Origin: Labia minor
Lineage: Eukaryota > Arthropoda > Insecta > Dermaptera > Spongiphoridae
Reading direction: 5' to 3'
Length of the DNA stretch: 64,000 bases
Assembly: GCA_963082975.1 (NCBI GenBank)
Contig: OY720345.1
Coordinates: 19,060,491-19,124,490, forward strand
In this document: piece after piece, positions 158 through 63,391 of the stretch
Position numbering within the stretch: the stretch's first letter is position 1
Layout: every line of letters starts with the position of its first letter
Notes under the pieces: generated by a model
Database searches by the model: none
Seen by the model: only the letters and a program-made list of their open reading frames with translations
What the model was told of the DNA's origin: nothing
Program-made: the position numbers and the translations under genes

Positions 158-464
158 TAAAATTATAAGAAATATTATATCTTAAATATATATCTATTAT
201 TTAATTAACATGCACTATAAAATTAAATAAATTAAATAAATCTTTTCAAATGCATACTAATAATAATAATATATATTAAGTTTTATTTATTATTTTTTTA
301 ATATTCCTAAACATTGCAAAGCTTACACAATCTTTTTAATAATACATATTAACTATCATTAAATTAATTATATTATTACAAATATATAATTAAGCATTTG
401 TTAAAACTATTTAAATTCTAAACTATAAACTATTTATATTCTTCTTAAAATAATTATTTTTATT
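158..464. other. AT-rich 3' flank of OR-A
   Basis: No gene is visible. The stretch aligns with 8690-8974 and 23716-24713 in the other two cassette units, so it is part of the duplicated cassette. The site at 352-359 (CTATCATT) is the uninterrupted version of the place where a hAT element sits at 23912-24603 in unit 3. Confidence 0.6.
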
Positions 465-3400
465 TTATTCATTTAAATTCATCATTAATGCAAAAATCTG
501 ATAAGAGCCTTTGATGATCTGCAAAACAATATATATTATGTAAAAGTAGGTATTTAAAAATTTTAAAGGAGCAGGGATATTATTTTAAATAATTTATTTT
601 TTGGAAATTAATAATATCAATTGATAATAATTGTTATAAAATCAAACTATATTAATGATTATAACATAAGTGGACTTTATTAATAAAAATGAATTTAAAT
701 GATTGAATACTAACCACTGAAAAGGTATCCAGATGAAGTATAAATATTTCGCCAACTTTTATTTTTAATACACGTTTCAATTGATTTTGTAATATAAGTA
801 TATACAAACGAAAATATTTTGGTGATAACTCCCAACCACAATAGAAGATGGAAGTTTCCATTTTATTTGACTTTATTATACATGAAAGAAAAAAATAGGT
901 AAATTTTAGGTAGGGGCAACCGGGGAGACTCTGGACACTTTTTGTTTCTCAATTTTTTTCTAAGTCGTTTCAAAGATTAGAACATTTCTCAAGATGTCAT
1001 TAGGTAGCCTGAAGATTAACGTTCATCCGAGATTTTTTAAAAGCCGCTAGAAATTCTCTTTTCACTGACGTTTTCAACCAAATTTTTCTTATTCCAGGTT
1101 TTCTCTTTGATGCTCCTCTGAAGAACATTTCATTCGTTCGTGACTAAGTCCGCCTCTGATTTCTTAAAGAAGAGATGTGCCTTCTTGAAGCCACCCTGCC
1201 TCAAAGGGTTGTGTTTCTAATGCCAATTTTTGTATGTTTTTCGCAAGTATTTAAGAAAATCTCGGCCATTTTTCCTGTTTGAAATGTTCATCCTAGTGCT
1301 CACACGACACAATTATTTTAGCTCGAAAATGCAAAGAGAGTTCGAGAAAATCGAACTGTATATTCATTGCCTCCCCTTGTCAAGAATCTCCTCGGTCTTG
1401 CCCATATATATATAGAAGAATAATATAAAATATTTTTTCTCACAATATACTTACTTTCTCTTGTAAAGCTTGACCAAATGCACAAAGACAGTATAATTGC
1501 ATTAATAGCCATGTAACATAGAGCATTGCATGCATTGCACTAAAGCCCATCTATTAAAAATAAACAAATAAATAAAGAATAATAAATTAATTAATTTTAT
1601 TTTATTACATTCAAGACTTAAACTTTAAAGATGCAATGATTAAAGATGATTATATTTCACAAGTAAATAAAATTTTATCTCAAGCTAAACAAAGAATTGT
1701 AATTTATAGATAAAGTTAATCCGCTTTCAGGACCTCCTAAATATTTTGTTGAAAGTCCCTTTCCATTAGTTTTATATTTATTTTGTTTCATTCAGTTCTT
1801 GTCACAGTTTTTTTCATCACCTCCTCCAAGAAAATGATTAATTGTGTGATATTTCTCTGAGGATACCCTTTAAATTTATAATAAAAAAAAATAAGTTGAC
1901 CTGTGGCCAGGTCCGAACCGACCGACGGTTTGAAATAAATTAATTTCCAGCTACAGAAACAATTTCAAATAATTTTAATATATCTATTAATGTAATAAAA
2001 AACAGATATGGATATAACATAAATATTTTTAATTTTATTTTATTTATAATATATAGCTGAAGTAGCCGGCGTTGCCGGCGTTACCCGAGGCTGTGACGTC
2101 ATGAAGGGCTGGGTGACGTCATATAATTTTAAATTAAGAAAAACATAATGAAGATGATTTTTCCCGAGGATAAAACCAATACATTCGTGGTGATATGTAA
2201 AAAAATCTCCTTATGTGAAATTTGGTGCGAAAATAACCCTTCCCTTCTTATCGTCGATCGCTAATACTACCACTTCCGGTTTCCGGATTTGCACCAAAAG
2301 TTGATCAATTCATCCCACTGATGCATTAAGTAAATATACCAAATTTCATCAAAATCCGTTAAGCCGTTCAGGCTGTACACATCTATACGGACGGACAGAC
2401 GGACGGACAGACGGACGGACAGACATCATGCTAAAAATACTTTTTTCTGTTAAGAAAATGCATGATTCGTGGAGATATGTAAAAATCTCCACATGTGAAA
2501 TTTGGTGTGAAAACAATACCTCCCTTACTATCGTCGGTCGGTAATTAAATACATGAAGCGAAAACATTTGGCCAACAAATCGATCGCGTGGCCAATTTTG
2601 GTCGATCTTCGAACGATCTCAGAAGGAATTTCGGGTATCTTAGTTTTTGAAGACTAAACAACGTTTTTCCTGATTCCCATACTGAAGATTCAATATTATT
2701 ATTTTTGACAGAATATACATCAAATTCCTTGGTTAGAGACAAACAAACATTAATATTAAAGCAACAAAATAAATTCCAAATCTGCCTTTAGCTGTAGCTA
2801 ATTTGAATTAATAAATATTGTTAATAATTAACCCTGTTTTTAATTTTTATGGGCATGAGTTTTTAGGCCGTTCAAATAATTATTGTTGTTGATTTTTAAG
2901 CAGGTAGATAATTATAGTTGAGTACTAGGTAAACTGATCGAGTTATTGTTTACTTTATATGAAATACAGTGTATTAAATTAAATAAACATTTAACACCCC
3001 TTCTTCCCCATTAGACTAGTTGTCTATGACAATAAGTCGATCGCGACATTCTCTTAAGATAACAAAAGTCGATCTTATACACAAAAAAGTTGGCCTACAC
3101 TAAAATAAATTATAATTTTTTTTTTTGAGTCGTTTATTTGAAAATATCATAAGTTCAAATTAAATTATCTCCCTCCTTCCTTTAATGACAAACCGTGTCA
3201 ACCCCATTTTCAATTTTGCATCTTTTACAAATGCAACCTTTAGTAAAACTATAATTTTCTTAAATGTACATATTCAAATAGACATATTTTTAATACATTG
3301 ATTTTATTATTTTTCAATTTGCTAAAATAACAAAATTATTATAGCACCTCAGCCACAAATGTCCTTTCTATTCGAAATTAGTTTCACTCCTTACTAACCG

Positions 3401-4809
3401 GATCCTTCAGGGAGAATTTAGTCTTCTTCGTCGGGGCACAGCAAGAAGCAGCAAACATTAAACCACTGAGTTCTAACGGATTTATGTTTTAGATTTACCA
3501 CAAGTCCCCTTGACAATGGACATTCTACAAGAACATCATCTACTGTGACTTTGATGTAGCATAGTGTGTGCACCAAAAGGAGCATTTTCTTTAAGAGTCA
3601 GATCTCCTTGTGAAAAGAAGCTCTGACCTAATCTGTCCTGCTCTCTTCTTGATATTGAATGTTTTTTGAGTGATTTTAGAATTAAAATACAAAAAAAAAA
3701 TTTAATTAACTATATACAATGATTAATAGATTTCTCTGAACATGAAATATAATAATAAATTTTATTTTCAATTTATTTGTTATTATTTAAAACTAAAAAA
3801 AAATTATATTTATATTATACTTACTAATATAATTTTAAATAAACTGAAACATAAACAAAAAAATGTTGTACCAAACTGCATGATTGCTTTAATTGTATAT
3901 AATTCTTCATATTTGGGAATATATCTAAAAATAATATTAATAATATATTATATTATAAAAACAAAATATAGGTATATATTTAAATTTTATTATATTTTTT
4001 TAAATGATTATTCTTAATATTCACTTTATAACTCTTTGATGTAATATAATATATTTTATTAATTTCTTTTTCATCATTTTTCTAATTAATTCTTCGTCTT
4101 TTTCTTCATTGATATTAGGATAATTTTTTTTTAATATTTCGATTGAATCCTCTTTCAAATGAAGAATACCATCCGATAAAAATTCTAATTGACTTATTGG
4201 ATGTAATAGAAATGAATAATTGAGCATATCTGTTAATGGATATGCAATTGTACCAACAAATGATATTTGTAAATTTAAATAAAACATGAATTTATAACTG
4301 AATGATGATGGATCTTCCATAAAATCACCATAATAGATATCAATAAAAAAATTCAATTTTCCTGTAATTGCATAATGTATCATTTGAGATGTAAAATAAG
4401 CAATTGTTGCAACAGGTGTATAAGCTTCATAAAATTTTGAAAATTTTATAAAGGTCCTTTGATATTGATTGATAATTTGTTGAATACGTGGATTGGTGCC
4501 ACCAATTTCTGTTTGATATTGAAGATCGTCACGTATTTCAGCAATTATTCGACGATATTTGTAACGAAAATGGTAAATGGTTTGAATATTCGTTTGAAGG
4601 AGGATCATTGCAATTAGATAAGATAGGTAATCGACATTTTCGAGGGTAATTTTCATCAGAAGAGAAAAGACCCATCCAAAAGCGATAATATTATGTATCA
4701 TACAAATACTTAGGAGATAAAAGCCAAATAAACGAGATAATAATGATGGCTTTTTTTCAGACTCCAAATTCAATCCCAAACGAAAATATTTTTTCAATAA
4801 ACGATCCAT
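465..4809 (-). CDS. Odorant receptor OR-A, five exons, complete
   Basis: Insect odorant receptor (7tm_6 family), expected to act as a ligand-tuning subunit with Orco in the membrane of olfactory neuron dendrites. Exons on the minus strand: 4809-4025, 3924-3825, 1550-1455, 870-715 and 518-465. They sum to 1191 bp, or 396 aa plus stop, close to the usual length of about 400 aa. All introns are GT-AG; intron 1 splits codon 262 after its second base and the others are phase 0. Hydrophobic segments lie near residues 28-50, 60-76, 128-146, 172-200, 271-294 and 296-320, with a last one near the C-terminus. Family hallmarks are the TM6-like exon 3 (start MGFSAMHAMLYVTW), FYCGWE in exon 4 and the short last exon with SYQIFALMMNLNE. 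The splice frame is reproduced in two paralogues at 8975-16693 and 24714-29210. The long intron 2 holds a Helitron-like repeat. Which odorant it binds cannot be read from sequence. Confidence 0.88.
1892..2544 (-). mobile_element. Helitron-like short element, family H1
   Basis: A 653-bp repeat inside intron 2 of OR-A. One end is TTACCGACCGACG and the other has CGTCGGTCGGTT followed by the hairpin GACCTGGCCACAGGTC, so it has subterminal inverted repeats and one end hairpin. A GGACGGACAGAC microsatellite block lies at about 2387-2424 and a TGACGTCA palindrome near 2096. No target duplication is seen. These traits fit non-autonomous Helentron-type elements (HINE/DINE-1-like); this class is inferred. 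Other copies: 15326-15694, 21650-22317, 27843-28211 and 54879-55533, with partial ones at 50481-50700 and 51766-52142. The strand follows the copy at 21650 taken as plus. Confidence 0.6.
2545..3700. other. Rest of OR-A intron 2, unit-specific
   Basis: There is no open frame with a recognisable product. Short GATCGCG and TTGGCC motifs recur near 2565-2605 and 3036-3090, but I could not define element ends. This stretch has no counterpart in units 2 and 3, so it was inserted here or lost there. Confidence 0.4.
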
Positions 4810-5509: not shown

Positions 5510-5640
5510 TAAAATATTTTAAAAAAAGCATTAGACCTGTATTAACGTATTGAGCACAAATCTGGTCTCTTACAAAAAAAATATGAATGATCTTGAAACA
5601 ATACAAAGATGAATTATCAAGAGTATTTTTTTTTAAAAAT
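5510..5640 (+). mobile_element. LINE reverse-transcriptase relic
   Basis: With a few frame changes the plus strand reads RPVLTY, then AQIWSLT, then a run like MNDLETIQRR. This is the thumb region of Jockey/R1/I-type LINE reverse transcriptases. The relic is short and decayed. The same relic sits at 17395-17525 in unit 2, so it predates the cassette duplication. Confidence 0.5.
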
Positions 5641-5710
5641 TGCACATAAAGTGAATATAAAAAAATTGAATAAAAAATTAAAAATAGAAAATATCAACAT
5701 CTATATCTAA

Positions 5711-5990: not shown

Positions 5991-6674
5991 ATACTGCTGG
6001 CTAGACAGACCGAGCTCGGACATTGAGGTGAGAGGAAGGGAGTGAAGAGACTGTGGCCCATGAAAAAAGATTTGTGATCAACTCATAAGACATTTATTTT
6101 TTTTTAATATTTACTTTTAAGTTTTTATTTCTTTTTGAGTTTTATAAATGTAATTAAAAATATATTTAGATTCAAATAAATCTAAATTATTTTATATATA
6201 ACTTGTGATTTAATCAGTGGACAACCTGATTACAATATTATTAATTTTTTTTTACAATAATTTCATTTCACAAAACTTTTTACCAGTATGAATTAGTAAA
6301 TGAGAAATTGAATGTGATTAAATTAAATTCAAAATGCTTTTATCGTGTAAGAATTAAAATAAGGATTTTTATAAAGTTTCTTTTTTATTTACACACACAC
6401 ACAATTATAGATTAGTAAAATGAAAGAATCATACGACAAATTTTAGATTTGTATAAATAATAAATAAATTAACATAAGGATAATAAAATGATAGGATTCT
6501 TAAATGTAATAGATAATTAGTAATAATGTATTTATTAATGGAGTAAATAAAATAGTAAATATATAAATACTAAGTTAAATAAATCAAATTTTTATTGATT
6601 TAATCTACAATTTGTGGTATAAAGTATATAAGTTATATTCAAAGAAAATGTTTTCATTATTAAGCCCATATTTT

Positions 6675-8084
6675 TCAAACATTATGTATTAATAAATGTT
6701 TATCTAAGTGTGATTTATCATTAAATTTCTTTTCACAATAATTACATTCAAAAGGTTTTCCTCCTGTATGAATTATTAAATGTCTATTTAAATTTGATTT
6801 CTGATTAAATTTCTTTTTACAATAATTACATTCAAAAGGATTTTCTCCTGTATGAATTAATAAATGAGTTTTTAAATGTGATTTATCATTAAATTTCTTT
6901 TTACAATAATTACATTCAAAAGGTTTTTCTCCTGTATGAATTAATAAATGTCTATCAAAACTTGATTTCTGATTAAATTTCTTTTTACAATAATTACATT
7001 CAAAAGGTTTTTCTCCAGTATGAATTAATAAATGTGTTTTTAAATTTAATTTCATATTAAATTTCTTTTCACAATAATTACATTCAAAAGGTTTTTCTCC
7101 TGTATGAATTAATAAATGTCTATTTAAAATTGATTTTTGATTAAATTTCTTTTCACAATAATTACATTCAAAAGGTTTTTCTCCTGTATGAATTAATAAA
7201 TGTCTATCAAAACTTGATTTCTCATTAAATTTCTTTTTACAATAATTACATTCAAAAGGTTTTTCTCCACTATGAATTAATAAATGAGTTTTTAAATGTG
7301 ATTTATCATTAAATTTCTTTTCACAATAATTACATTCAAAAGGTTTTTCTCCTGTATGAATTAATAAATGTCTATTTAAATTTGATTTCTGATTAAATTT
7401 CTTTTTACAATAATTACATTCAAAAGGTTTTTCTCCAGTATGAATTAATAAATGTGTTTTTAAATTTAATTTCATATTAAATTTCTTTTCACAATAATTA
7501 CATTCAAAAGGTTTTTCTCCTGTGTGAATTAATAAATGTTTATCTAAACTTGATTTCAATTTCAATTTCTTTTTACAATAATTACATTCAAAAGGTTTTT
7601 CTCCTGTATGAATTAATAAATGTCTATCTAAATCAGATTTCTGATTAAATTTCTTTTTACAATAATTACATTGAAAACGCCTGTCTTCTGTATGGTTTGA
7701 ATCAGTTTCTTTAAATTTTTCGTCTAAATATTTTTCTGAATCCTTTTTGAGTTTTACATCATTTTTGAAAATGGAAAATATTTTTTTATGAAAACATTTT
7801 TTTAGATGTTTAGATAAAAATTCCTCACTTATAAAATACATATGACAATATACACAAGAATATAGAGGACCTAAAAAAATAATTTTTTTCGTTATTTTAA
7901 ATGATTATATTTTTATATATCTAAATATTTTATAATTCAATTTAAGGAATAATATCATTAGAAATAATATTAAAATAAATAATTTTAGAGACAATTAATA
8001 TTACTTTAGATGAAAAAAATATAGAAATAAAAACTAACCTATATATATTGGATATTTTGTGTCTTCTTGTGAATAAAGATCCAT
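6675..8084 (-). CDS. C2H2 zinc-finger protein ZNF-1, 12 fingers, two exons
   Basis: A putative DNA-binding nuclear protein of 413 aa. Exon 1 is 8084-8039 (ATG, 15 codons plus one base) and exon 2 is 7870-6675; the intron is GT-AG and phase 1, and the total of 1242 bp is in frame. Exon 2 opens with an atypical C2HC finger (Cys21, Cys24, His37, Cys41), then a lysine-rich stretch. From about residue 82 there are 12 tandem 28-residue fingers with the linker [12 protein letters not shown] and a KKFN core. Helix variants include QKSDLDR, MKLNLKT, DKSHLKT, EKSSFDR, QKSNLNR and QKSILNR, several used more than once. It lies downstream of OR-A's 5' end on the same strand and is copied with it. No KRAB, ZAD or BTB domain is seen. 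Target sites are unknown. More 5' exons cannot be excluded. Confidence 0.82.
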
Positions 8085-8974
8085 TTTTAATGTATTATAA
8101 ATTATAAAACATATACTAGGTAATAAGTAATATAAATCAGATGGTCTGTGATATAAATGTTTTAAATTTTGATTTTGATTTACAATTAAATATTTGTCTT
8201 TAAGATTACAACCAGATGGGTGAAAAGCAAATTTGACTTCCGGAAACCTTATGTGTTTTTTCTCTTATAATTGTTAGATGGCGCTGCTGTCGACAAATTA
8301 CATTTTTGCCATGGATATATGGAGGTACCATTCCGTTTGTTTTTTGTGGTGGCAGGTGGCACCAAAAAAGTAGGGAGAAATTTTTGAATGAAAAGGAATG
8401 AAATGAAATGTTGAATCTTGACTACTATAAATAGTTGTCATTCTCTTTTAAAGAAGAAACTTATATATAGATAGCACCTCTAATAGGTCTATAAAAATTG
8501 AATACATGTCGTTAGCAACCATGTTTCTCTAATCCTCCCTTTCTAGAGCTTCCCCCTTTGACTACAAATCCGAAAGATATGAATGATATGATATATATTC
8601 TATTTCATCTTTAAATAATTGTTTTTAGTTTATAAAATAAAAAGTTGAAATAATAGTTTGAATTATATTTCTTAGTTTAATTATTTCAATCCATTTCTAT
8701 ATTATATCTTGAATCTATTATTTAATTCGCATGCATTATAAAATTAAATAAATCTTTTCAAATACATACTAATAATAATAATAATATATTAAGTTTTATT
8801 TATTATTTTTTAATATTCCTATAAATTACAAAGCTTACACAATCTTTTTAATAATACATATTTACTATCATTAAATTAATTACTATTACCAATATATAAT
8901 TAAGCATTGGTTAAAACTATTTAAATTCTAAACTATAAAATATTGATATTCTTCTTAAAATAATTATTTTTGTT
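8085..8974. other. Junction between cassette units 1 and 2
   Basis: The 5' flank of ZNF-1 runs into the 3' flank of the next receptor. Around 8261-8280 the sequence reads CTCTTA then TAATTGTTAGATGG. In the next junction a whole Helitron (20411-23274) sits exactly between those A and T bases, so this is its natural empty site. No other gene is visible. Confidence 0.65.
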
Positions 8975-11900
8975 TTAGTTATTTAAGTTCATCATTAATG
9001 TAAATATCTGATAAGAGCCTTTGATGATCTGCAAAACAATATATAAAAGTATATAAAAGTAGGTATTTAAAAATTTAAATGGGGTAGGGATATTATTAAT
9101 TAGTTAATTAATTATATTAATTTATTTTTGTAATAATATTAATTTATATATGTTAATTAACTATTAATTATAAATTAATGTTTATGATTATTAAAGAATA
9201 TATTTTATTATTATGAAAATGTTATAAAATCAAAAACTATATTAATGAGCATAACATACAATACTATAATTCCATAAGCGGAGTTTATTAATAAAAATGA
9301 ATTTAAAAGATTGATTACTAACCTCTGTAAAGGTATCCAAATGAAGTATAAACACTTCGCCAACTTTTATTTTTAAAGCACGTTTCAATTGATTTTGTAT
9401 TATAAGAATATATAAACGAAAATATTTTGGTGATAACTCCCAACCACAATAGAAGATGGAAGATTCCATTTTATTTGACTTTATTATGCATGAATGAAAA
9501 AAATAGGTAAATTTTAGGTAGGTGCAACCTGGGAGACTCTGGACACTTTTTGTTTCTCAATTTTTTTCTAAGTCGTTTCAAAGATTAGAACATTTCTCAA
9601 GATGTCTTTAGGTAGCCTGAAGATTAACGTTCTACCGAGATTTTTTAAAAGCCTCTAGAACATAGGTTCCCAAACTTTTTTTGTGTCGAAGACCCCTTGC
9701 CATGTTTTTAGGTTTTGGGGAGACCCCCTAAATTGATTTATTATAAACAATATAAATGTGTCAAAAGCCATGTCGGAAAAACGATTTACCTTTTTTTTAG
9801 AGACATATTCAAAAAAATCCATGTCGGAAAATAATTTAGCTTTTTTAGATCCAGGAAAACACACACGTGGACCCCGCAGACCCCCATTTTCATTTCATGG
9901 ACCCCCAAATTTGTTATTCGCTGCCGTTGACCCCCTGGAGGTTAAAATAGATGCACAGATAGATTGCCAGTGTTTGTTCCGGTGCAAGCAGAGGCGGATT
10001 ATCCGTAAGGCAAACTAGGCACGTGCCTAGGGGCGTGTAGTTACAAGGGGCGCGCGAGCTCAGAATTTTTAAAATTTATAGTATTATGATGGGCATTTAT
10101 GGCCGATACACGGGCGCCGATAAAGTGATTGCCTAGGACGCTCTAGACCTTTAATCCGCTACTGGGTGCAAGTGAAGCAAATACTGCACTCTTTCAGTCT
10201 GCAGACAACCAGTCTCTTCGAACTCTATGTGGAGGAGTTCCTTGTACAACTGCCGACCTAATCCGGAGTAAAAATTTTTATTTCTCCAGCTTTCGCCTAT
10301 GGTACTCCTCTGAAGAACATTTCATTCGCTCGTGACTAAGTCCGCTTCTTTTTTTAAAAGAAGGGTTGTGTCTTCTTGAAGCCTCCCTCAAATGGTTGGG
10401 TTTCCATGGCCAATTTTTTGAATGTTTATCCCAAGTATTTAAGAAAAAGTCGGCTATTTCCTCTCCAAATGCAAAGAGAGTTCGAGAAAATCGAACTGTA
10501 CATTCATTGCCTCCCTTTGACCAGAATCTCCCCGTTCTCCCCCATATATATAAGAATAATATGAAATATTTTTTCACAATATACTTACTTTCTCTTGTAA
10601 AGCTTGACCAAATGCACAAAGAAAATATAATTGCATTAATAGCCATGTAACATAGAACATCGCATGCATTCCACTAAAGCCCATCTATTAAAAATAAACA
10701 AATAAATAAAGAATAATAAATTAATTAATTTTATTTTATTACATTCAAGATATATATAATTACAGAGACTTAAACTTTAAAGATGCAAAGACTAAATATG
10801 ATTATATTTCGCTAATAAATAAAATTTTATAACAAGAAAAACAAAAAATTTTAATTTTCACATAAAATTAATCCGCTTTCAAAACCTCCTAGATATTTTG
10901 TTGAAAGTCCCTCTCTATTAGTTTTACATTTATTTCGTTTCATTCAGTACTTGTCACAGGTTCTGACAACATCTCCAAGAAAAAAAAATATTTTGAGTTA
11001 TTTCTCTTATGATACCGTTTAAATCTATTTTTATAAGAAAATACTTTAAAATGTGTATATAAAATTATAATATTAAAATAGGCATATGTAAATTTTGATA
11101 AATTTATAAAAAAAATATTTGGTTATTTTTTAATAATTTTCGAATATAATTAGAACTTCTCTCTATTTTAAATTCTAAAAAACTGAAAGCGTTCTAGACA
11201 AGTTAAGAAATTTGGATGCCTCATGCAACATAAATGGGTAAAAGAATTGGCCTGGAAGAAGAGACAATTTATAAGTTTGTTCTAAATCTTAGGAGAATAT
11301 CAATGCGGATTCAGGCCAAATCGGTCAACATTCGATCAAATTTAATCTGGCTAAGAACATTTAATATTTCTGTTCACAAATTATTCAGTGTTTTGGCAAA
11401 GCGTATGACTCAGTTGAATTAAAAACGTATAAAAATTAACAAAATGATAATTTGTATTTGAATATAATGAATCAAACAAATGTAAACGAAATACACAGAT
11501 CATGTGAATAGAAGAGTGCGAAAGACAAGGAAGCGACTTGATTAAGGCGCAGACGAATTGAAAAACCATTGAAACCAAAGATAAGGAGATCTTGAAGAAA
11601 TTTGGAGAGAATAGGTTTTGAATGGTGGTCGGTCAGGACAGAAAGTGTTCTAAAACTACTTGCTGCCACTAATAATTTTCAAATCCTCTAGCGCCACAGA
11701 TTTAGATAAGATTCTTCTAATGGAGAATAATTATGGTCTAGAAAAATTAATACAAAATAAAAAAAAATATTTTAATTTAAATTAATAATGTTAATGAATG
11801 TATATATATTTCAGTTTATCTATAGATAGAACGTTAAAAATATTAATTTTTCTTTTATAAAATGTCTCAATCATTAACTTTGTTCTTGAATTTCATTATA

Positions 11901-14900
11901 AGATTAAAAAAAAAATTTAATAAAATCAAGCAATAAAATTAAAAAATCAAAATGATTAAAAAAAACTATACTCTATTACAGGGGTCGGCAACCTGCGGTC
12001 CGCATGCGGCCCTTTTCGCCTTTTTGTGCGGCCCCCCAAAGCATTAATATAATTTTGAAAAAATCAACAGAACGTGCCGAAATGAGGCCGGTGGCAATAA
12101 TGTATACCAGGGGTCGGCAACCTGCGGCCCGCGGTCCGCATGCGGCCCTTTTCGCCTTTTTGTGCGGCCCCCCAAAGCATTAATATAATTTTGAAAAAAT
12201 CATGCCGTGCCGAAATGTGGCCGGTGGCAATAATGTATACGAACAGAAGTACAAATTTACAAAACTTGTTGAGGATCTCAGTATCCCAAACACAACCGGA
12301 CGTAAATGAATTATCCAACAATATTCAAGAACAAACATCGCATTGAAGCTTAATGAATGAATAAAATGAAAGATATTTTATATTCACATAATAATGTATT
12401 TTTGTAATTGAAATTGTATTTTCCTTTTTCCTGTTACAAACTGTATTATTTTTGTTTTCTAACATTCTTTTTCTTTTATTATAATATTTATTTGATTATT
12501 ATATTATTTTATTATATTTATAAGTATGTAATTGGAATCGTATGTTTTTATTTAAGAATTGATAAATTTTGTCAATAAAATGTACTTTTTTCTATAATCT
12601 TTTAATAATATTTATACTTGTATATGATATAAAAGCACTATGTAAGTTATATTTGAATGTGCGGCCCGCATAAAAAAAATTATTTTGAAAATGGCCCGCC
12701 ATCCGAAAAAGGTTACCGACCCCTGCTCTATTATAACATATTCAACTAAATATATAATTGATTGACGGATTAAATTAAAATATATTTTAATTAATATAAG
12801 AACACAAAAAGAAATGAATGTTTAATGATAAATAGATTAATTATTAATTTTACATAGGTGCAATTTTTCAGAACATGAAATTTAATGATACATTTTATAT
12901 TCAATTCAATTATTATTATTTAAAACTAAAAAAAGTCGAATTGGCAGTCGTGGGACTGGCCGACAGAAGTGAAAACTTGTGCGTAAGAAATTTGAAAGCA
13001 GACGGAATGCGCACCAGCTTCACGAGAAAAATGAAATTTATATACGTATATATATATATATAAAATTCATAATTATTTTTTTCAGCAAACTGATTATTAT
13101 TACAAAAATATTAAAAATACGATGTGTATGAATATATATATATATGTCTGTCTGTCTGTCTGTCTGTGTGTGTGTGTGTCTGTCAAATACTCAAAAACTA
13201 CCCGTCCGATTGCGATGAAACTTTCAGGGATTGTTGTGGGCGTCCCAGGGAAGGTTTTAGTGTAGTTAAATCCAAAATTAATTTATCCAAAATTAATTTA
13301 AATAGTAATATTTTGGTAAAAGTCTATTTATGGTTACCATGGTTACATTGAAAAATTTACAATAAATAAATAAAAATAATTGGAAATCTTTTCAAATTAT
13401 TATTTTGATAAATTTTATTAATATTTTTAATTTTTTTTAAACTGCCAAAAATAACATACCCATAATAATAGTTGTAATAAAAATAAAAATATAAATCACA
13501 ATGTAAGTAAAATATTGAATCGTTTTATTTATATTGTTTCAATTATTGTTTGAATATTTATTAAATTTATATATAGATTAATTTACATGTTTAAATGTAT
13601 ATTTAATAAATTTATTTATTGATTCTTAATATTAATAATTCCAATTACTTTCTTGAAAATTTTTTTTATTTAAAAGCATATTCAGCATATCTCGCAAATT
13701 TGAATTGGATTAAATAACATATATTAATTTAAATTAAATTAAATTAATTCAATTATAAATTAAAATTAATAAATAATATTTATTAAACCAGCGAAAGTTT
13801 GGCTCTCTTTTGATGGCACCACGTCACGTGTTGGCGCGTGAGATTTCCAGTGTTAAAAAATTAATTCTGGTACTTTCAGCAATTCAATTTTCGATGTTGA
13901 GATTTTGATGTTTTTGATGTTATAAATAATATTTATTAAATTATAATTTAATTAATTTAATTTAATTTAAATTAATAAATATTATTTAATCAAATTCAAA
14001 TTTGCAAGATAGTCGAGTGGATAGTGGAGTGTTTGGCTCTTTGTTGATGGCACCACGTCACGTGTTGGCGCGTGAGATTTCCAGTGTAAAAAAATTAATT
14101 CTGGTACTTTCAGCGATTCTATCAGGCTGAAATTCTATATATAGCAGTTTTATACAATTATTAATCATGTGAAAAATTATCAAACATATATCTTTATTTT
14201 TACGTTCACACACACACACACACACATATTTAAAAATTTATTTATTAAAATATATATTATATAATATATTATATATAGTATATAATTTAATATATATATA
14301 TATATATATTTTGAAATTAATTTTAAATTATATAAATATATTAGAAATTAATTTAATATAATTTAACACATAATAATATATTAAAATATTTTATTTTATA
14401 TATACATAATTTAGTAATACTGATTATTAATGTAAATATAAATAATAATATTTAATATGGCAAATATGTAAAATTTCGTAAAGAATGTATCAGAAGTTTA
14501 GTGTCTAACATTCAGGCGTATTGCGCATGCGTATATCGGTCGGCCGGTCGGGTCGGTGTCGTTTTGGAATCTCACGCGAAATCTATATTTTTTCCCCATC
14601 CGCAAAAGTGCTCAACGCCGCTAAAGAAGTTTTCACTTCAAAAAAATATATTTATATTATACTTACCAATGTAATTTTAAATAAAGTGAAACATAAACAA
14701 AAAAATGTTGTACCAAACTGCATGATTGCTTTAAGTGTATATAATTCTTCATATTTGGGAATATATCTAAAAGTAATAATAATAATAATATATTTTAAAA
14801 ACAAAATATATATATTTAAATTTTATTATATTTTATTAAATGATTATACTTAATATTCACTTTATAACTCTTTGATGTAATATAATATATTTTATTAATT

Positions 14901-18557: not shown

Positions 18558-20219
18558 TCAAACATTATGTATTAATAAATGTTTATCTAAATGTGATTTT
18601 CTATTAAATTTATTTTCACAATAATTACATTCAAAAGGTTTTTCTCTTGTATGAATTAATAAATGTTTATTTAAAATTGATTTCTGTTTAAATTTCTTTT
18701 CACAATAATTACATTCAAAAGGATTTTCTCCTGTATGAATTAATAAATGAGTTTTTAAATGTGATTTATCATTAAATTTCTTTTTACAATAATTACATTC
18801 AAAAGGTTTTTCTCCTGTATGAATTAATAAATGTCTATCAAAACTTGATTTCTGATTAAATTTCTTTTTACAATAATTACATTCAAAAGGTTTTTCTCCT
18901 GTATGAATTAATAAATGTCTATCAAAACTTGATTTCTGATTAAATTTCTTTTTACAATAATTACATTCAAAAGGTTTTTCTCCTGTATGAATTAATAAAT
19001 GTCTATTTAAAATTGATTTTTGATTAAATTTCTTTTCACAATAATTACATTCAAAAGGTTTTTCTCCTGTATGAATTAATAAATGTCTATCAAAACTTGA
19101 TTTCTCATTAAATTTCTTTTTACAATAATTACATTCAAAAGGTTTTTCTCCAGTATGAATTAATAAATGAGTTTTTAAAATTGATTTATCATTAAATTTC
19201 TTTTCACAATAATTACATTCAAAAGGTTTTTCTCCTGTATGAATTAATAAATGTGTTTTTAAATTTAATTTCATATTAAATTTCTTTTCACAATAATTAC
19301 ATTCAAAAGGTTTTTCTCCTGTGTGAATTAATAAATGTGTTTTTAAATTTAATTTCATATTAAATTTCTTTTCACAATAATTACATTCAAAAGGTTTTTC
19401 TCCTGTATGAATTAATAAATGTCTATCAAAACTTGATTTCTCATTAAATTTCTTTTTACAATAATTACATTCAAAAGGTTTTTCTCCAGTATGAATTAAT
19501 AAATGAGTTTTTAAATGTGATTTATCATTAAATTTCTTTTCACAATAATTACATTCAAAAGGTTTTTCTCCTGTATGAATTAATAAATGTGTTTTTAAAT
19601 TTAATTTCATATTAAATTTCTTTTCACAATAATTACATTCAAAAGGTTTTTCTCCTGTGTGAATTAATAAATGTTTATCTAAACTTTATTTCAATTTCAA
19701 TTTCTTTTTACAATAATTACATTCAAAAGGTTTTTCTCCTGTATGAATTAATAAATGTCTATCTAAATCAGATTTCTGATTAAATTTCTTTTTACAATAA
19801 TTACATTGAAAACGCACGTCTTCTGTATGGTTTGAATCAGTTTCTTTAAATTTTTCGTCTAAATTTTTCTCTGTATCCTTTTTGAGTTTTACATCATTTT
19901 TGAAAATGGAAAATATTTTTTTATGAAAACATTTTTTTAGATGTTTAGATAAAAATTCCTCACTTATAAAATACATATGACAATATACACAAGAATATAA
20001 AGGACCTAAAAAAATAATTTTTTTCGTTATTTTAAATGATTATATTTTTATATATCTAAATATTTTATAATTCAATTTAAGGAATAATATCATTAGAAAT
20101 AATATTAAAATAAATAATTTTAGTGACAATTAATATTACTTAAGATGAAAAAAATATAGAAATAAAAACTAACCTATATATATTGGATATTTTGTGTCTT
20201 CTTGTGAATAAAGATCCAT
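18558..20219 (-). pseudogene. C2H2 zinc-finger gene ZNF-2, about 15 fingers, one in-frame stop
   Basis: Paralogue of ZNF-1. Exon 1 is 20219-20174 and exon 2 is 20005-18558; together they make 1494 bp in one frame. The frame is interrupted by a single TAA at 19686-19688, where ZNF-1 has TCA inside its second finger. Upstream of it are the C2HC finger and one and a half C2H2 fingers; downstream about 13 fingers stay open. The order of finger types differs from ZNF-1 (two MKLNLKT fingers side by side, two QKSSFDR fingers side by side), so the 84-bp units have been shuffled or converted. With only one break the loss is recent; a shorter protein from a later start is possible but unproven. Read as a pseudogene or truncated allele. 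Confidence 0.75.
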
Positions 20220-21649
20220 TTTTAATGTATTATAAATTATAAAACATATACTAGGTAATAAGTAATATAAACCAGATGGTCTGTGATATAAATGTTTTAA
20301 ATTTTGATTTTGATTTACAATTAAATATTTGTCTTTAAGATTACAACCAGGTGGGTGAAAAGCAGAAAAGCAAATTTGACTTTCGGAAACCTTATGTGTT
20401 TTTACTCTTATCTTATCTTCTTATACGAGTAAAAATTGTTTCTCTGTTTCTCTGTTTCATTGTTCTCAAAAACCGCTCTAACGATTTTTTTGAAATTCAC
20501 AACAGAGATAGTATTTATAAAGAAAAATTGAGTTTTATTGACCACATCTCTGGAAAACTAGATCTTTATTAGTTTTTATCTTCTAAATTTAAATGTATAT
20601 ATGTGACGTCACAACCACCGCCTGTGAGATATATACATATCTATTCTTAAAATAAAATTAAAAATATTTATATTATATTCATATATTTGATTTTTTTTTA
20701 TTTCATTAATAGTTTTACATTTAAATTATTTGAAATTGTTTCACACAACGTTTAAAAGAAGATTTATCTTTATATTCGATTCGATATATAGTAGGAGAAT
20801 TAAATGACGTTATCAATTTATTATACTCCGGTAAATATTATAAAATATTATATACTAAATATTCAATTAGTATATATTAGATATTTAATCAGTAAATTAA
20901 TTATATATATTATTATTGTAAATGTTATATCTATCTATATTATATAATGTGTCCCTTCATACATTTTGAATTCACCCATAATATATCTTATATTCTTATA
21001 TACTTACTTGAAAAAAATTTAAAAAGTTTTAAAAGTTTTTTTTAATATTTTATGAATTCAAATCGTCAATTGAAAATGAAAATCCAATTATGAGATCAAA
21101 ATTAAAATTATTTATTCATATAATTTTGAATGTTTTCGTGTATTATAAATAAAAACAAATATATAGATATTCTTTGGATGACAAATTCCAATTTATATGA
21201 TCTTAATATATTTTTATAAAAAGGCCAATTATATATATATGCAATTACAACTGTAGTGTCAAACACTGATTTTGAATTTGGCGACATATAAGATCATTGA
21301 CTGGGCCGCTACCCAAGGAGTGAAAATAGTGTCGAATAGAAATAGACGATATTACTTGGATTAATCTTATTATATAAAATTGTTTGTTTTATAACCACTT
21401 GGGGCGCTAAACAGTTTTTCAAAAAAAAACTATAGAAAAAATATATATGAACCTATATATTATATATTTATGTATTATTGAGGAGCACAAGTTCATTCAT
21501 TTTAATCAGATTGATGCAAATGTGTAACATTTAATAATTGTAATAAATAATTAAAGAATTGTATATCAATATTTTTCAAAGGGTAGAGCGAATGCTCGGT
21601 GTCCCAGGTATTAATATTACCAGCCAAATCCAATAATAATGAATCATTT

Positions 21650-22317
21650 TTACCGACCGACGATAGTAAGGGAGGTATTGTTTTCACACCAAATTTCACA
21701 TGTGGAGATTTTTACATATCTCCACGAATCATGCATTTTCTTAACAGAAAAAAGTATTTTTAGCATGATGTCTGTCCGTCCGTCTGTCCGTCTGTCCGTC
21801 TGTCCGTCCGTCTGTCCGTCCGTCTGTCCGTCTGTCCGTCCGTATAGATGTGTACAGCCTGAACGGCTTAACGGATTTTGATGAAATTTGGTATATTTAC
21901 TTAATGCATCAGTGGGATGAATTGATCAACTTTTGGTGCAAATCCGGAAACCGGAAGTGGTAGTATTAGCGATCGACGATAAGAAGGGAAGGGTTATTTT
22001 CGCACCAAATTTCACATAAGGAGATTTTTTACATATCACCACGAATGTATTGGTTTTATCCTCGGGAAAAATCATCTTCATTATGTTTTTCTTAATTTAA
22101 AATTATATGACGTCACAGCCTCGGGTAACGCCGGCAACGCCGGCTACTACAGCTATATATTATAAATAAAATAAAATTAAAAATATTTATGTTATATCCA
22201 TATCTGTTTTTTATTACATTAATAGATATATTAAAATTATTTGAAATTGTTTCTGTAGCTGGAAATTAATTTATTTTAAACCGTCGGTCGGTTCGGACCT
22301 GGCCACAGGTCAACTTA
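21650..22317 (+). mobile_element. H1 element nested in the Helitron
   Basis: A 668-bp copy of family H1 with both ends, the GTCCGTCTGTCC microsatellite expanded to about 72 bp (21770-21842), and the TGACGTCA and GCCGGCAACGCCGGC blocks. It is absent from the related Helitron copies at 56582 and 60685, so it inserted into this copy. Confidence 0.65.
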
Positions 22318-22479
22318 TTTTAACTTAAGTACCGAGCAAGGCTCAGGGTCCCGGTATATATTATAAAAGTGCAATGTGGGTATGTTTTGTGGAGGTAAAG
22401 GTTCTAAGGAAACAAACATACTATCAACAAAGCTCAGGGCCAGACACTCAAGTGCTGCGGAGTTCATTTGCAATCCCCA

Positions 22480-23050
22480 TGTTTTTCCCACAGCCAATTA
22501 TATGTTGCATGTTGTGAGTATGTGATTACACAAATTGGGAAAAAATCACTCGAAATGCAATTAAACAAAAAAATTGAAAAGTTAGGCTAAGCAGACGTCT
22601 TAAATATTATAAGAGATTCGGCAATTGCAATTACAGATAGCGAGGAAAAATTAATGGAGGTTCTAAGGAAACAAACATACTATCAACAAAGCTCAGGGCC
22701 AGACACTCAAGAAATTAATAGTGATAAGAAAAAATATTTAGTGACAAAGAGGAACAGTATTAACATACAAAATCTTAATATACAAAATGTAAAATTTGAA
22801 TATGTAGAAAAATTGAATGTAATCACGAAGAATAATAATATTTGAGAAGAATTTAAATCGAGGTATCAATCGGGAAACGCCTGTTATCATGCAGTAAAAG
22901 GCTTATCTCATCAAAATTATTATCAAAGGGAATCAAGACGCATAGGAAGGGACGTAAGAGAGATGGGACAAGGGCTCAGAATAGGGACATTTGGAGAAAT
23001 GTGGCCAAGAACTTTCGAGTATCTTTGAGTTATATAAATAGATAGATATA
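22480..23050 (+). mobile_element. LINE ORF2 fragment inside the Helitron
   Basis: The frame reads AITDSEEKLMEVLRKQ, then EINSDKKKYLVTKRN and NLNIQNVKFEYVEKLN, which matches the palm and after-palm region of RTE-like LINE reverse transcriptases. It then jumps to the C-terminal end (EMGQG, then a frame reading RAQNRDIWRNVAK). About 600 bp of the normal protein are missing. A 51-bp piece (22401-22452) repeats part of 22660-22711. Two other Helitron copies carry the same fragment with the same internal jump. Confidence 0.65.
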
Positions 23051-23274
23051 ACATTTACAATAATAATATATATAATTAATTTACTGATTAAATTAAAATA
23101 TATTTTAAATAAGAACACAAAAAGAAATGAATGTTTTATGTAATATAATGATTGAAACAAAATGGATGAAAACCTTTTACTACTTTTAACCAAATACGAT
23201 GTACCACTCGGGGGTACAGGGGGCGGAGCCCCCGTCCAGCTGTGAAGAGCGCCGAAGGCGCTCTGACCAGCTGG

Positions 23275-23911
23275 TAATTATTAGATGGCGCTGCTGTCGA
23301 CAAATAACATTTTTGCCATGGAGATCTGGAGGATCCATTCCGTTTGTTTTTTGTGGTGGTGGTGGTGACATAGTTGTCATTTCCTTTAAAAAAGAAACTT
23401 ATAGATGGATAGCACCTCTAATAGGTCTATAAAAATTGAATACATGTCGTTAGCAACCATGTTTCTCTAATCCTCCCTTTCTAGAGCTTACCCCTTTAAC
23501 TACAAATCCGAAAGATAGGAATGATATGATATATATTCTATTTCATCTTTAAATAATTGTTTTTAGTTTATAAAATAAAAAGTTGAAATAATAGTTTGAA
23601 TTATATTTCTTAGTTTAATTATTTCAATCCATTTCTATAATACAATATAATATTTATAATAATTTTCTGATTTTGAATTGTGTGTTTGTGTATATTTAAA
23701 ATAAATTAATTAAAAAAATGAATTATAAGAAATATTATATCTTGAATATATATCTATTATTTAATTCGCAGGCATATAAAATTAAAAATAAATCTTTTCA
23801 AATACATACTAATAATAATAATATATATTAAGTTTTATTTATTATTTTTTAATATTCCTATAAATTACAAAGCTTACACAATCTTTTTAATAATACATAT
23901 TTACTATCATT
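23275..23911. other. Left flank of cassette unit 3
   Basis: Matches 8267-8870 of unit 2 (same ATTAGATGGCGCTGCTGTCG stretch and following AT-rich part). No gene is seen. It ends at the target site of the hAT element. Confidence 0.6.
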
Positions 23912-24713: not shown

Positions 24714-27700
24714 TTAGTTATTTAAGTTCATCATTAATGCAAATATCTGATAAGAGCCTTTGATGATCTGCAAAACAATATATAAAAGTAGGTATTTTAA
24801 AATTTAAATGGGGTAGGGATATTATTAATTAGTTAATTAATTATATTAATTTATTTTTTGTAATAATATTAATTTATATATGTTAATTAACTATTAATTA
24901 TAAATTAATGTTTATGATTATTAAAGAATATATTTTATTATTATGAAATTGTTATAAAATCAAAAACTATATTAATGATCATAACATACAATACTATAAT
25001 TCCATAAGCGGAGTTTATTAATAAAAATGAATTTAAAAGATTGATTACTAACCACTGTAAAGGTATCCAAATGAAGTATAAACATTTCGCCAACTTTTAT
25101 TTTTAAAGCACGTTTCAATTGATTTTGTATTATAAGAATATATAAACGAAAATATTTTGGTGATAACTCCCAACCACAATAGAAGATGGAAGTTTCCATT
25201 TTATTTGACTTTATTATGCATGAATGAAAAAAATAGGTAAATTTTAGGTAGGTGCAACCTGGGAGACTCTGGACACTTTTTGTTTCTCAATTTTTTTCTA
25301 AGTCGTTTCAAAGATTAGAACATTTCTCAAGATGTCTTTAGGTAGCCTGAAGATTAACGTTCTACCGAGATTTTTTAAAAGCCTCTAGAACATAGGTTCC
25401 CAAACTTTTTTTGTGTCGAAGACCCCTTGCCATGTTTTTAGGTTTTGGGGAGACCCCCTAAATTGATTTATTATAAACAATATAAATGTGTCAAAAGCCA
25501 TGTCGGAAAAACGATTTACCTTTTTTTTAGAGACATATTCAAAAAAATCCATGTCGGAAAATAATTTAGCTTTTTTAGATCCAGGAAAACACACACGTGG
25601 ACCCCGCAGACCCCCATTTTCATTTAATGGACCCCTAAATTTGTCATTCGCTGCCGGAGGTTAAAATAAACGCACTTTGGGAAACTATGCTCTAGAAAAT
25701 CTCTTTTGTCTCTGATGTTCGTCTTTATTCCGAGCTGGAATTCTGTAAAACCAAGTTGTTGTAATTTTGTTTAAAACTATTTTAAAGAAAATTTAGGCTT
25801 TGAGACCTCATAAATAATACAAGTTTGAACTTCTGATTGCCAGTGTTTGTTCGGGTGCAAGTGTAGCAAATACTGCAGTCTTTCAGTCTGCAGACAACCA
25901 GTTCTCTTCGAACTCTATGTGGAGGAGTTCCTTGTACAACTGCCGACCTAATCCGGAGTAAAAATTTTTATTTCTCCAGCTTTCGCCTATGGTACTCCTC
26001 TGAAGAACATTTCATTCGCTCGTGACTAAGTCCGCTTCTTATTTCTAAGAGAAGGGTTGTGTCTTTTTGCCTCAAAGGGTTGTGTTTCTAAGGCCAATTT
26101 TTTGAATATTTATCGCAAGTATTTAAGAAAAAGTCGGCTATTTCCTCTCCAAATGCAAAAAGAGTTCGAGAAAATCGAACTGTAAATTCATTGCCTCCCT
26201 TTGACCAGAATCTCCCCGTTCTCCCCCATATATATAAGAATAATATGAAATATTTTATCTCACAATATACTTACTTTCTCTTGTAAAACTTGACCAAATG
26301 CACAAAGACAGTACAATTGCATTAATAGCCATGTAACATAGAGCATCGCATGCATTGCACTAAAGCCCATCTATTAAAAATAAACAAATAAATAAAGAAT
26401 AATAAATTAATTAATTTTATTTTATTACATTCAAGATATATATAATTACAGAGACTTAAACTTTAAAGATGCAAAGACTAAAGATGATTATATTTCGCTA
26501 ATAAATAAAATTTTATAACAAGAAAAACACATAAAATTCTTCTAATCCGCTTTCAAAACCTCCTAGATATTTTGTTGAAAGTCCCTCTCTATTAGTTTTA
26601 CATTTATTTCGTTTCCTTCAGTACTTGTCACAGGTTCTGACAACATCTCCAAGAAAAAAAAATATTTTGAGTTATTTCTCTTATGATACCGTTTAAATCT
26701 ATTTTTATAAGAAAATACTTTAAAATGTGTATATAAAATTATAATATTAAAATAGGCATATGTAAATTTTGATAAATTTATAAAAAAAATATTTGGTTAT
26801 TTTTTAATAATTTTCGAATATAATTAGAACTTCTCTCTATTTTAAATTCTAAAAAACTGAAAGCGTTCTAGACAAGTTAAGAAATTTGGATGCCTCATGC
26901 AACATAAATGGGTAAAAGAATTGGCCTGGAAGAAGAGACAATTTATAAGTTTGTTCTAAATCTTAGGAGAATATCAATGCGGATTCAGGCCAAATCGGTC
27001 AACATTCGATCAAATTTAATCTGGCTAAGAACATTTAATATTTCGTTCACAAATTATTCAGTGTTTTGGCAAAGCGTATGACTCAGTTGAATTAAAAACG
27101 TATAAAAATTAACAAAATGATAATTTGTATTTGAATATAATGAATCAAACAAATGTAAACGAAATATACAGATCACGTGACAAGAAGAGTGCGAAAGACA
27201 AGCAAGGAACTTGATTAAGGCGCAGACGAATTGAAAAACAATTGAAACCAAAGATATTGAAGAAGTTTGGAGAGAATAGGTATTGGATGGTGGTCGGTCA
27301 GGTCAGAAAGTGTTCTAAAACTACTTGCTGCGACTCATAATTTTCAAATCCTCTAGCGCCACAGATTTAGATAAAATTCTTCTAATGGAGGAGAATAATT
27401 ATGGTCTAGAAAAATTAATACAAAAAAAAAAAAATATTTTAATTTAAATTAATACTGTTAATGAATATTTTAGTTAATCTATAGATAGAACACGTTAAAA
27501 ATATTAATTTTTCTTTTATAAAATGTCTCAAGTCATTAACTTTGTTCTTGAATTTCATTATAAGATTAAAAAAAAAATTTAAAAATATCAAGCAATAAAA
27601 TTAAAAAATCAAAATGATTAAAAAAAACTATACTCTATTATAACATATTCAACTAAATATATAATTGATTGACTGATTAAATTAAAATATATTTTAATTA

Positions 27701-29210
27701 ATATAAGAACACAAAAAGAAATGAATGTTTAATGATAAATAGATTAATTATTAATTTTACATAGATGCAATTTTTCAGAACATGAAATTTAATGATACAT
27801 TTTATATTCAATTCAATTATTATTATTTAAAACTAAAAAAAATAAGTTGACCTGTGGCCAGGTCCGAACCGACCGACGGTTTGAAGTAAATTAATTTCCA
27901 GCTACAGAAACAATTTCAAATAATTTTAATATATCTATTAATGTAATAAAAAACAGATATGGATACATAAATAATAAATATAAACATTTTTAATTTTATT
28001 TTATTTATAATATATATGCAAGACCAGGCTGAGACGTCATGAATGGCTGGATGACGTCATATAATTTTAAATCAAGAAAAAACTAATAAATATGATTTTC
28101 CCGAGGATAAAACCAATACAAAGTGTATGATTCGTGGTGATATACAAAAAAATCTCCTCATGTGAAATTTGGTGTGAAAACAATACCTCCCTTACTATCG
28201 TCGGTCGGTAAATATATTTATATTATACTTACCAATGTAATTTTAAATAAAGTGAAACATAAACAAAAAAATGTTGTGCCAAACTGCATGATTGCTTTAA
28301 TTGTATATAATTCTTCATATTTGGGAATATATCTAAAAGTAATAATAATTAATAATATATTATAAAAACAAAATATATATTGAAATTTTATTATATTTTA
28401 TTAAATGATTATACTTAATATTCACTTTATAACTCTTTGATGTAATATAATATATTTTATTAATTTCTTTTTCATCATTTTTCTAATTAATTTTTCATCT
28501 TTTTCTTCATCAATATTAGGATAATTTTTTTTTAATATTTCAATTGAATCCTCTTTCAAATGCAGAATACCATCCGATAAAAATTCTAATTGACTTATTG
28601 GATGTAATAGAAATGAATAATTGAGCATATCTGTTAATGGATATGCAATTACACCAACAAATGATATTTGTAAATTTAAATAAAACATGAATTTATAACT
28701 GAATGATGATGGATCTTCCATAAAATCACCATAATAGACATCAATAAGAAAATTCAATTTTCCTGTAATTGCATAATGTATCATTTGGGACGAAAAATAA
28801 ACAAATGTTGTAATAACTGTATAAGATTCATAAAATTTTGAAAATTTTATAAAAGTTCTTTGATATTGATTGGTAATTTGATGAATACGTGGATTGGTGC
28901 CACCAATTTCTGTTTGATATTGAAGATCGTCACGTATTTCAGCAATTATTCGACGATATTTATAACGAAAATGGTAAATAGTTTGAATATTCGTTTGGAG
29001 GAGTATTGTTGCAATTAGATAAGATAGGTAATCGACATTTTCGAGGGTAATTTTCATCAGAAGAGAAAAGACCCATCCAAAAGCGATAATATTATGTATC
29101 ATGCAAATACTTAGAAGATAAAAGCCAAATAAACGAGATAATAATGATGGCTTTTTTTCAGACTCCAAATTCAATCCCAAACGAAAATATTTTTTCAATA
29201 AACGATCCAT
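24714..29210 (-). CDS. Odorant receptor OR-D, five exons, complete
   Basis: Insect 7tm_6 odorant receptor. Exons on the minus strand: 29210-28426, 28332-28233, 26370-26275, 25208-25053 and 24767-24714; total 1191 bp, 396 aa. Splice sites and phases are those of OR-A. Exon 1 is identical in protein to exon 1 of the unit 2 receptor; exons 3-5 differ from that receptor by only a few residues. The last exon codes for IIKGSYQIFALMMNLNN. Intron 2 holds an H1 element next to exon 2, and intron 3 holds a hAT MITE (25391-25689). This is the most regular of the three receptors: no broken exon, and splice signals in full. No zinc-finger gene follows it on the right, unlike units 1 and 2. Ligand unknown. 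Confidence 0.88.
25391..25689. mobile_element. hAT-type MITE, 299 bp
   Basis: Ends CATAGGTTCCCAAAC and TTTGGGAAACTATG are inverted, with the 8-bp duplication CTCTAGAA (25383-25390, 25690-25697). Unit 1 has no insertion at the matching site; unit 2 has the same insertion with its right end deleted. Confidence 0.85.
27843..28211 (-). mobile_element. H1 element in OR-D intron 2
   Basis: Same short H1 copy as at 15326-15694, at the same distance from exon 2 and without a visible difference. Confidence 0.65.
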
Positions 29211-30760
29211 TTTAATTGTCTATGATTACATTCAACAAACAAACTATCTATTTTACTTTAAATTTAACCTTCAAAAAATAAAAAAAAATATATAAATAAA
29301 TAATTAAAACCCATTTTCATTTATAATTTATTTATTCTACTTTTCCTTTTTTTTTTTGTTTCAAATTATATTTTCTTATTCTTTTGATAATAGAATTAAT
29401 AAAATTTTAACAAAACAAACAAACAAATTGCAGGAGATGATTTAAAAATACTTTATAATAATACACTTTTTTTTTAACAAAATTCAACTATTTGATTTTT
29501 AAATATTTATTTATTCTTTTTGATATATGACACTTGAGATGATCACACTTGTTTTGTTAAATAATATAAATATTTAATTCTATTTGATTTACGTGCAATA
29601 CCATGAATATTGTAATAGATAATGATAAAGTACATTTATTTAAATTATATTTCGTTCTCTTTTTTGAATAAAATATTATTATGTTTATTTGGTTTAGTTA
29701 TTATTTGTCTCAGAGATTAAAATATAAAACAAAAAGAGATTTGTTAATTCATTTGAATATTTATTTATTTTGTATCTTTTAAATAATTATTTTATAACTC
29801 ACTCGTAATTTTATTCTTTTCTATAAAAATGAATGCATACAGCACCGGATAATGGTCGCCAAATTTTGAGGGGCGCCTATATAAAAAAAAAAAATATTTT
29901 TTTCCATTCATTATTTAAAAGAAAATTTGTATGAAAGGGTGCCAAATTTTATTTTGCTCGAGGCGCTCAAAACCCTAGAACTGACCCTGCATGTATGTAT
30001 ATTTGATATAAAAATTATCTAAAGTAATAAATTTAATTAAAGGGTGTTTTAATAAAAATCCCTTTAATAATTATAAAAACCACAAAAGTGGATTTTGTTT
30101 TAAACATTTTGTTAATTTAAATTTATTTAGTACAATCCATATCGAACCTGAGATTTTATAAGGGTTTACTATGATGTCTCTGCTCAATCCAGAATTTTTT
30201 CATTTATAAAATAATTTCATTTCTCATTGTTGATATAATTTAATTCTAAGTGAACCTCGCTGTTAAAACTATTTCTAAAAGTTTTTTTTTAAATACTATA
30301 CTTATGATTGATCTTAACTGACTCCGATGTACTTATCATTTATATAATTTTCTTCTGCCTCCATAAAATTTGTTAGTTTAATTCTTTTGGTGTTTTCAAC
30401 GCAATCGAGAGACGACCTGTTATGAAAAAGATTCGCATGTGTAAATATCTCAATTAGTTGAGTTCCCCCAGTCGAGCGTTAAAATCTCCTACAAGAAATA
30501 TTTTTCTGAAAATTTATTAATATTGATAAATTCCATCATATCAAGTAAAGATTCTAAACAAAAATGTATTTGTGATAGATATATAACACCCAAAATAAAA
30601 TGAAAACCATTATTTTATTTATTTATTTATTGCCTTATTTAATGGTTCAGAACTAACACATTATTTATATATACATTTACATATAAATTTATTTACAATC
30701 ATTCCTTAATTCCTATAATAACCAATTACAAACTAAAATAAATATATATACATTTTTTTA
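29211..30760. other. Right flank of the receptor array
   Basis: To about 29830 this aligns with the 5' flanks of the other receptors, but beyond 29642 it is clearly diverged from unit 2. A GC-richer patch at 29835-29985 (CAGCACCGG at the left, GACCCTG at the right) looks like a decayed hAT-type MITE, but I find no target duplication. From 30000 to 30760 I see only AT-rich DNA and no gene. Confidence 0.5.
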
Positions 30761-63361: not shown

Positions 63362-63391
63362 CCCCCTCTTTGGTGACATTCGACCCGAATG

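Follow-up and report, generated by a model that had tools for sequence, protein, structure and literature searches.

An odorant-receptor gene and a C2H2 zinc-finger gene lie side by side in the genome of Labia minor, on one strand and at one spacing, and the pair is present twice in a short array. The question that this locus raises is whether the zinc finger belongs with the receptor and acts on its surroundings, or whether it has been carried along. We propose, at a probability of roughly 0.8, that the arrangement arose by unequal crossover in an older OR1-ZF-OR3 array, followed by conversion, and that the zinc finger is a passenger in it.

Structure of the array

The window, by which we mean the whole 64,000-nucleotide stretch that was analysed, is C2:19060491-19124490 of the Labia minor genome (604 Mb, 71 contigs). 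Read along the minus strand the order is OR3-ZF2-OR2-ZF1-OR1, with all five genes on that strand and one C2H2 gene in each gap between successive receptors. The gene structures are observed directly, and the spliced models give three intact receptors, each of five exons and 396 aa with consistent splice sites.

465..4809, minus strand: OR1, odorant receptor; exons 4809-4025, 3924-3825, 1550-1455, 870-715, 518-465; spliced, intact, 396 aa; 7tm_6 matches of exons 1 and 4
6675..8084, minus strand: ZF1, C2H2 zinc-finger gene; exons 8084-8039 (46 bp), 7870-6675; 12 fingers, intact
8431..8704, no strand: junction block, from ZF1 to the 3' end of OR2; second copy at 23370-23642
8975..16693, minus strand: OR2, odorant receptor; exons 16693-15909, 15815-15716, 10684-10589, 9478-9323, 9028-8975; spliced, intact, 396 aa; 7tm_6 match of exon 1
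18558..20219, minus strand: ZF2, C2H2 zinc-finger gene; exons 20219-20174, 20005-18558; layout as in ZF1; in-frame TAA at 19688-19686
20412..23274, no strand: repeat-rich insertion parting ZF2 from the second junction block (sequence comparison)
23370..23642, no strand: second copy of the junction block, from ZF2 to OR3; repeat of 8431-8704
24714..29210, minus strand: OR3, odorant receptor, the final one of the array; exons 29210-28426, 28332-28233, 26370-26275, 25208-25053, 24767-24714; spliced, intact, 396 aa

The 7tm_6 receptors are an insect family, and OR3 is an odorant receptor of this family by a full-length profile match over the curated cut-off (PF02949, E=2.5e-33, 115.9 bits against a cut-off of 25.8, profile positions 4-313 of 313); OR1 and OR2 were compared with the profile exon by exon. 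In a sequence search residues 243-396 of OR3 also match PDB chains of Orco, OR10 and OR28. Outside the window, tblastn with ZF1 and OR3 as queries gave no match at E<=1e-3 over 40 kb of left flank and 50 kb of right flank. About 39 kb beyond the right end of the window, at C2:19163189, there is a distant 7tm_6 match. Scans of the window with Rfam (at gathering scores) and for tRNAs were empty, and viral contigs scanned with ZF1 and with OR3 held no relative.

An earlier note on this DNA had described a receptor and a C2H2 gene copied together as one unit, and a third receptor lacking its partner. The pairing stands, with three receptors and two zinc fingers on a common strand; the distance from the zinc-finger stop to the receptor ATG is 1865 bp in unit 1 (OR1 and ZF1) and 1864 bp in unit 2 (OR2 and ZF2), and the two units are 94.5% identical over 3.9 kb, far beyond chance. 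The third receptor does indeed have no zinc finger upstream of it, but this is because OR3 is the end of the array, the zinc fingers sitting between receptors. That units 1 and 2 are copies of one receptor and zinc-finger unit holds only in part, as the ancestry of unit 2 makes clear.

Mosaic ancestry of unit 2

Compared site by site with its neighbours, unit 2 proves chimeric: the receptor is like OR3, while the upstream flank and the zinc finger are like those of unit 1. The 5' block has 1646 three-way aligned sites; of its informative sites, all 88 as far as 17069 place unit 2 with unit 3, and from 17167 on all 40 place it with unit 1, although these 40 are not all independent because some border an indel at 17175-17192. 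Between 17069 and 17167, site 17126 joins units 1 and 3 and one further site differs in all three. The 3' block of 1451 sites is less uniform, with 136 joining units 2 and 3, 15 joining 1 and 2, 20 joining 1 and 3, and 2 differing in all. Three features describe the region around the switch.

17069..17167, no strand: ancestry switch, unit-3-like to the left and unit-1-like to the right; 376-474 bp upstream of the OR2 start codon
15202..17069, no strand: tract near-identical to unit 3, 1 difference in 1852 aligned bases
14644..15209, minus strand: incomplete fourth receptor copy (3' portion of exon 1, and exon 2), OR3-like, in OR2 intron 2 (sequence comparison)

A chimeric middle copy with a single ancestry switch is the pattern of an unequal crossover, with the exact breakpoint blurred here by a later tract. 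The stretch 15202-17069 is likely the product of recent conversion or copying between units 2 and 3. This near-identical tract of 1.85 kb stops where the ancestry switches, so what is seen as the breakpoint may mark the edge of a later conversion and not the crossover; the crossover point itself may lie anywhere within about 12.0-17.2 kb. The exon 2 copy in the fragment at 14644-15209 retains both of its splice sites, and inclusion of both 100-bp copies of exon 2 in an OR2 transcript would shift the frame.

The divergences point the same way. ZF1 and ZF2 differ by 1.5% in the flank and 1.9% on the N-terminal side of the zinc finger, the junction-block copies by 2.9%, and OR2 and OR3 in their 3' half by 1.4% and 2.8%. 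Pairs that would be equally old under one duplication are thus similarly diverged, which supports a crossover, while the dS of 0.114 between OR1 and OR3 marks an older split than that of the co-duplicated pairs. The site ancestry, the similar divergences and this older split together indicate that the prior state was most likely OR1-ZF-OR3.

OR1 has evolved under constraint relative to both other receptors (dN/dS 0.29 against OR2 and 0.25 against OR3). The few changes between OR2 and OR3, 2 synonymous and 8 non-synonymous and all in exons 2-5, give a dN/dS of 0.97, so that recent constraint is not apparent for this pair. The N-termini of ZF1 and ZF2 differ by 2 and 4 changes (dN/dS 0.41, again on few changes).

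Origin of the array

From these sites and divergences we infer both the crossover and the order of the events that follow. We propose that a member of a multicopy C2H2 family stood between two older tandem receptors, as OR1-ZF-OR3. Misaligned copies of this array would have recombined in the homologous 5' region of the receptors, and the exchange would have added one block of 5' flank, zinc finger, junction and receptor. If one block was added in this way, every gap between receptors would have a zinc finger and the end receptor none. Later, about 1.9 kb of OR2 would have been overwritten by OR3-type sequence, an event that would have left the broken OR3-like receptor fragment in OR2 intron 2, and ZF2 would have gained its stop codon later as well. 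Under this proposal selection would keep the receptors, with the zinc finger carried along. The array would require a single zinc-finger duplication, and the receptor copied together with the zinc finger would be the one on its opposite side, not the one paired with it in the earlier note. The claim that a zinc finger travels with each receptor copy is therefore not borne out, given that one duplication suffices.

A plainer history would have the OR1 and ZF1 unit duplicated in tandem to give OR2 and ZF2, with the whole of OR2 then converted from OR3. Units 2 and 3 have probably undergone some conversion or copying whichever history applies, as a tract with 1 difference in 1852 bases stands beside divergences of 1.4% and 2.8%, and the edge of that tract coincides with the switch point, as this history would have it. 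Under it, however, the entire receptor and the flank 3' of it would have to be converted, in events of two different ages; no unit-1-like tract remains in OR2, and even the leftover exon fragment is OR3-like (16 unit-3-like sites against 5 unit-1-like, with 12 private and 1 differing in all). We therefore regard tandem duplication with wholesale conversion as improbable, and prefer unequal crossover.

The zinc-finger genes and their family

ZF1 is a C2H2 finger array, with 12 zf-C2H2 stretches as tandem fingers joined by a linker. ZF2, read through its stop, has 15 finger units; the TAA is directly observed in finger 2, with 13 units beyond that finger, and just one of the two zinc-finger genes is therefore intact, although the stop could stem from a single-base assembly error. 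The order of the fingers as well as their number (12 and 15) differs between the two genes despite the flank divergence of only 1.5-1.9%. Across the 27 finger units the framework is near-uniform down to codon choice, and amino-acid variation falls mainly at helix positions, which we take to be the DNA-contact positions. Variation of this kind suggests a function of the family that is, or was until recently, under selection. No KRAB domain was recognised: the 80-aa N-terminus of ZF1 matches finger-like families below cut-off and one unrelated family weakly (6 families, E<=1), and KRAB is not among the best 25 of the 37 families that match ZF1 exon 2, so ZF1 is not classed as a KRAB zinc-finger protein.

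The family of these genes is large, scattered over the genome, and concentrated on one contig, C10. With the 80-aa N-terminus of ZF1 as query, the regular finger array being left out, 150 protein matches were scored out of 2093 first-look candidates, distributed as C10 102, C2 15, C1 11, C4 10, C5 5, C9 4 and C6 3. C10 is 76.9 Mb long, about 13% of the genome, and holds 102 of the 150. A 39-base DNA tag from the N-terminus, allowing <=3 mismatches, occurs at 487 places (267 forward, 220 reverse) against 0 and 0 for the reversed control; among the 100 of these places listed, C10 holds 35 of the 66 that match exactly. Open frames are shorter than 160 aa in 11 of the 150 scored matches, ZF2 included. 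On C10 the members lie partly in tandem clusters, for example at 14.65-14.71, 57.22-57.30 and 68.62-68.70 Mb.

Relatives elsewhere in the genome show how much sequence is shared with ZF1 beyond the gene itself.

6234..8310, minus strand: longest alignment of ZF1 with family members elsewhere, both ends common to three relatives read (L011, which is the same as L028; L017; L029)

In the other relatives read, homology with ZF1 is shorter or ends a few bases off 6234 or 8310, and at the second of these stops (8310) a repeat is nested in relatives. With the idea of transposon cargo in mind we inspected the stops at 6234 and 8310 for a target-site duplication, and by eye there was no clear one. Stretches of 9-10 kb around two family relatives held no OR3-like receptor by tblastn at E<=1.

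Several other repeats and elements are present in the window. One repeat family (1888-2544, 15308-15694, 21647-22321, 27825-28211, 54864-55536) occurs in intron 2 of each of the three receptors and elsewhere, and adjoins several members of the zinc-finger family on C10. The sequence at 62788-64000 recurs at 100% identity just past the window (L023:1794-3006 and L023:4800-5368; 1.2 kb and 0.6 kb).

32829-34490, plus strand: reverse-transcriptase element
38797-39114, minus strand: hAT dimerisation fragment
57463-58584, minus strand: Tc1/mariner-like transposase, 374-aa open frame

Association between receptors and zinc fingers

If the zinc finger were tied to receptors, members of its family should recur beside them. 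The 83 listed 7tm_6 matches fall into 39 clusters at 60-kb linkage, a list that is incomplete, given that OR1 is missing from it; the zinc-finger list is likewise partial (150 members scored, 100 of 487 tag places listed). Proximity was judged by coordinates. Among the matches listed, the cluster in the window is the sole one of the 39 with a family member inside it or within 80 kb; after it come distances of 82.8 kb (measured to the zinc fingers of the window itself), 89.7, 111.7 and 116.3 kb. On these lists the family is thus not recurrently beside receptors, with 1 of 39 clusters associated.

This one case does not exceed what chance gives. Using the 150 scored members, the probability that one or more clusters have a member within 10 kb is 0.17, and if all 2093 candidates were real it would be 0.92, with 2.35 such clusters expected; the model takes the window's two zinc fingers as one event, and its contig sizes other than those of C2 and C10 are lower bounds. 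A single association therefore provides no evidence for a link. The partial lists weaken the proximity test, and a few more associations are possible, though not a general rule. The proximity check that the earlier note had called for, made here within this one genome and on incomplete lists, thus turns out against a link: the family is scattered, hundreds of its members lie elsewhere, and among listed members the other 38 clusters have none within 80 kb. The same figures favour the option, also raised there, that the zinc finger is only a passenger. In the literature (titles and the starts of abstracts) a search on linked odorant receptors and zinc fingers returned nothing on the subject, and one for large zinc-finger families of beetles or of a single chromosome gave no match.

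Does the zinc finger act locally?

The zinc finger could instead have a role in the cluster, repressing its receptors or repeats locally for instance, and be kept adjacent for that reason. The common strand and spacing, the intact state of ZF1 and its diversified contact residues are what such a role would lead one to expect. However, ZF2 is nonsense-truncated, the incomplete lists place no family member inside any further receptor cluster or within 80 kb of one, and the predicted motif of ZF1 scores no better than permutations of finger order, over the whole window or in the receptor upstreams. This motif is a crude matrix built from a recognition code. An initial signal in the window, with a top score of 17.7 against 7.7-13.7 in ten Markov shuffles, was rejected: finger-order permutations average 20.4, and 438 of 500 reach 17.7. 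Within 1 kb upstream of OR1, OR2 and OR3 the observed score is reached by 137, 157 and 83 of 300 permutations, respectively. As most of the permutations in the window reach the observed value, the first signal was most likely an effect of GC-rich repeats, and the scan of window and upstreams shows no signal for the crude motif.

We consider local action very unlikely. With one zinc finger broken, and the intact one without motif signal in the cluster, we infer that the zinc finger is most likely a passenger and that the pairing looks ordinary.

Comparison with known systems

Growth by unequal crossing-over and gene conversion is familiar from tandem odorant-receptor arrays, and the array described here resembles them in its chimeric middle copy, its conversion-like tract, its partial gene fragment and its conserved receptors. 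It differs in having an unrelated gene in every gap, duplicated along with the array. Human odorant-receptor clusters are sites of recurrent unequal crossover, according to one report (PMC10463633).

For the zinc fingers the closest comparison is the ZF271-like/APEZ C2H2 expansions of Hemiptera, which form clusters with shuffled arrays and some broken members, number more than 115 proteins in Oncopeltus, and have no domain besides fingers found in them; repressive DNA binding is proposed there for the family, not demonstrated (PMC6444547). The two share a large lineage-expanded C2H2 family, similar fingers, a five-residue linker, tandem clusters, array shuffling and broken members. The present family differs in its scale (487 N-terminal tag places against those >115 proteins), in its conserved N-terminus outside the regular finger array, and in its concentration on one contig. 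The resemblance is one of architecture.

Ant and bee receptor arrays, which are reported to be controlled by readthrough and antisense transcription (PMC12393541), share with this array their same-strand tandem receptors. Non-receptor genes here would stand in the path of downstream transcription. Readthrough as in ants would be one way in which an interposed same-strand gene could matter. Stray members of the family might even, having been seeded in the array, act there as same-strand stops or switches of readthrough and so partition receptor choice, an idea we hold to be a long shot; if true, these genes would offer a natural experiment on readthrough control beyond the ants and bees.

Significance

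Our preferred reading, unequal crossover with a passenger zinc finger, implies that a single recombination event is enough to produce a repeated two-gene cassette, and that tracing ancestry through an array site by site separates hitchhiking from functional linkage. The zinc-finger family concentrated on C10 is the more interesting by-product, and merits a study of its own, for example with regard to conflict with repeats or to sex-chromosome biology.
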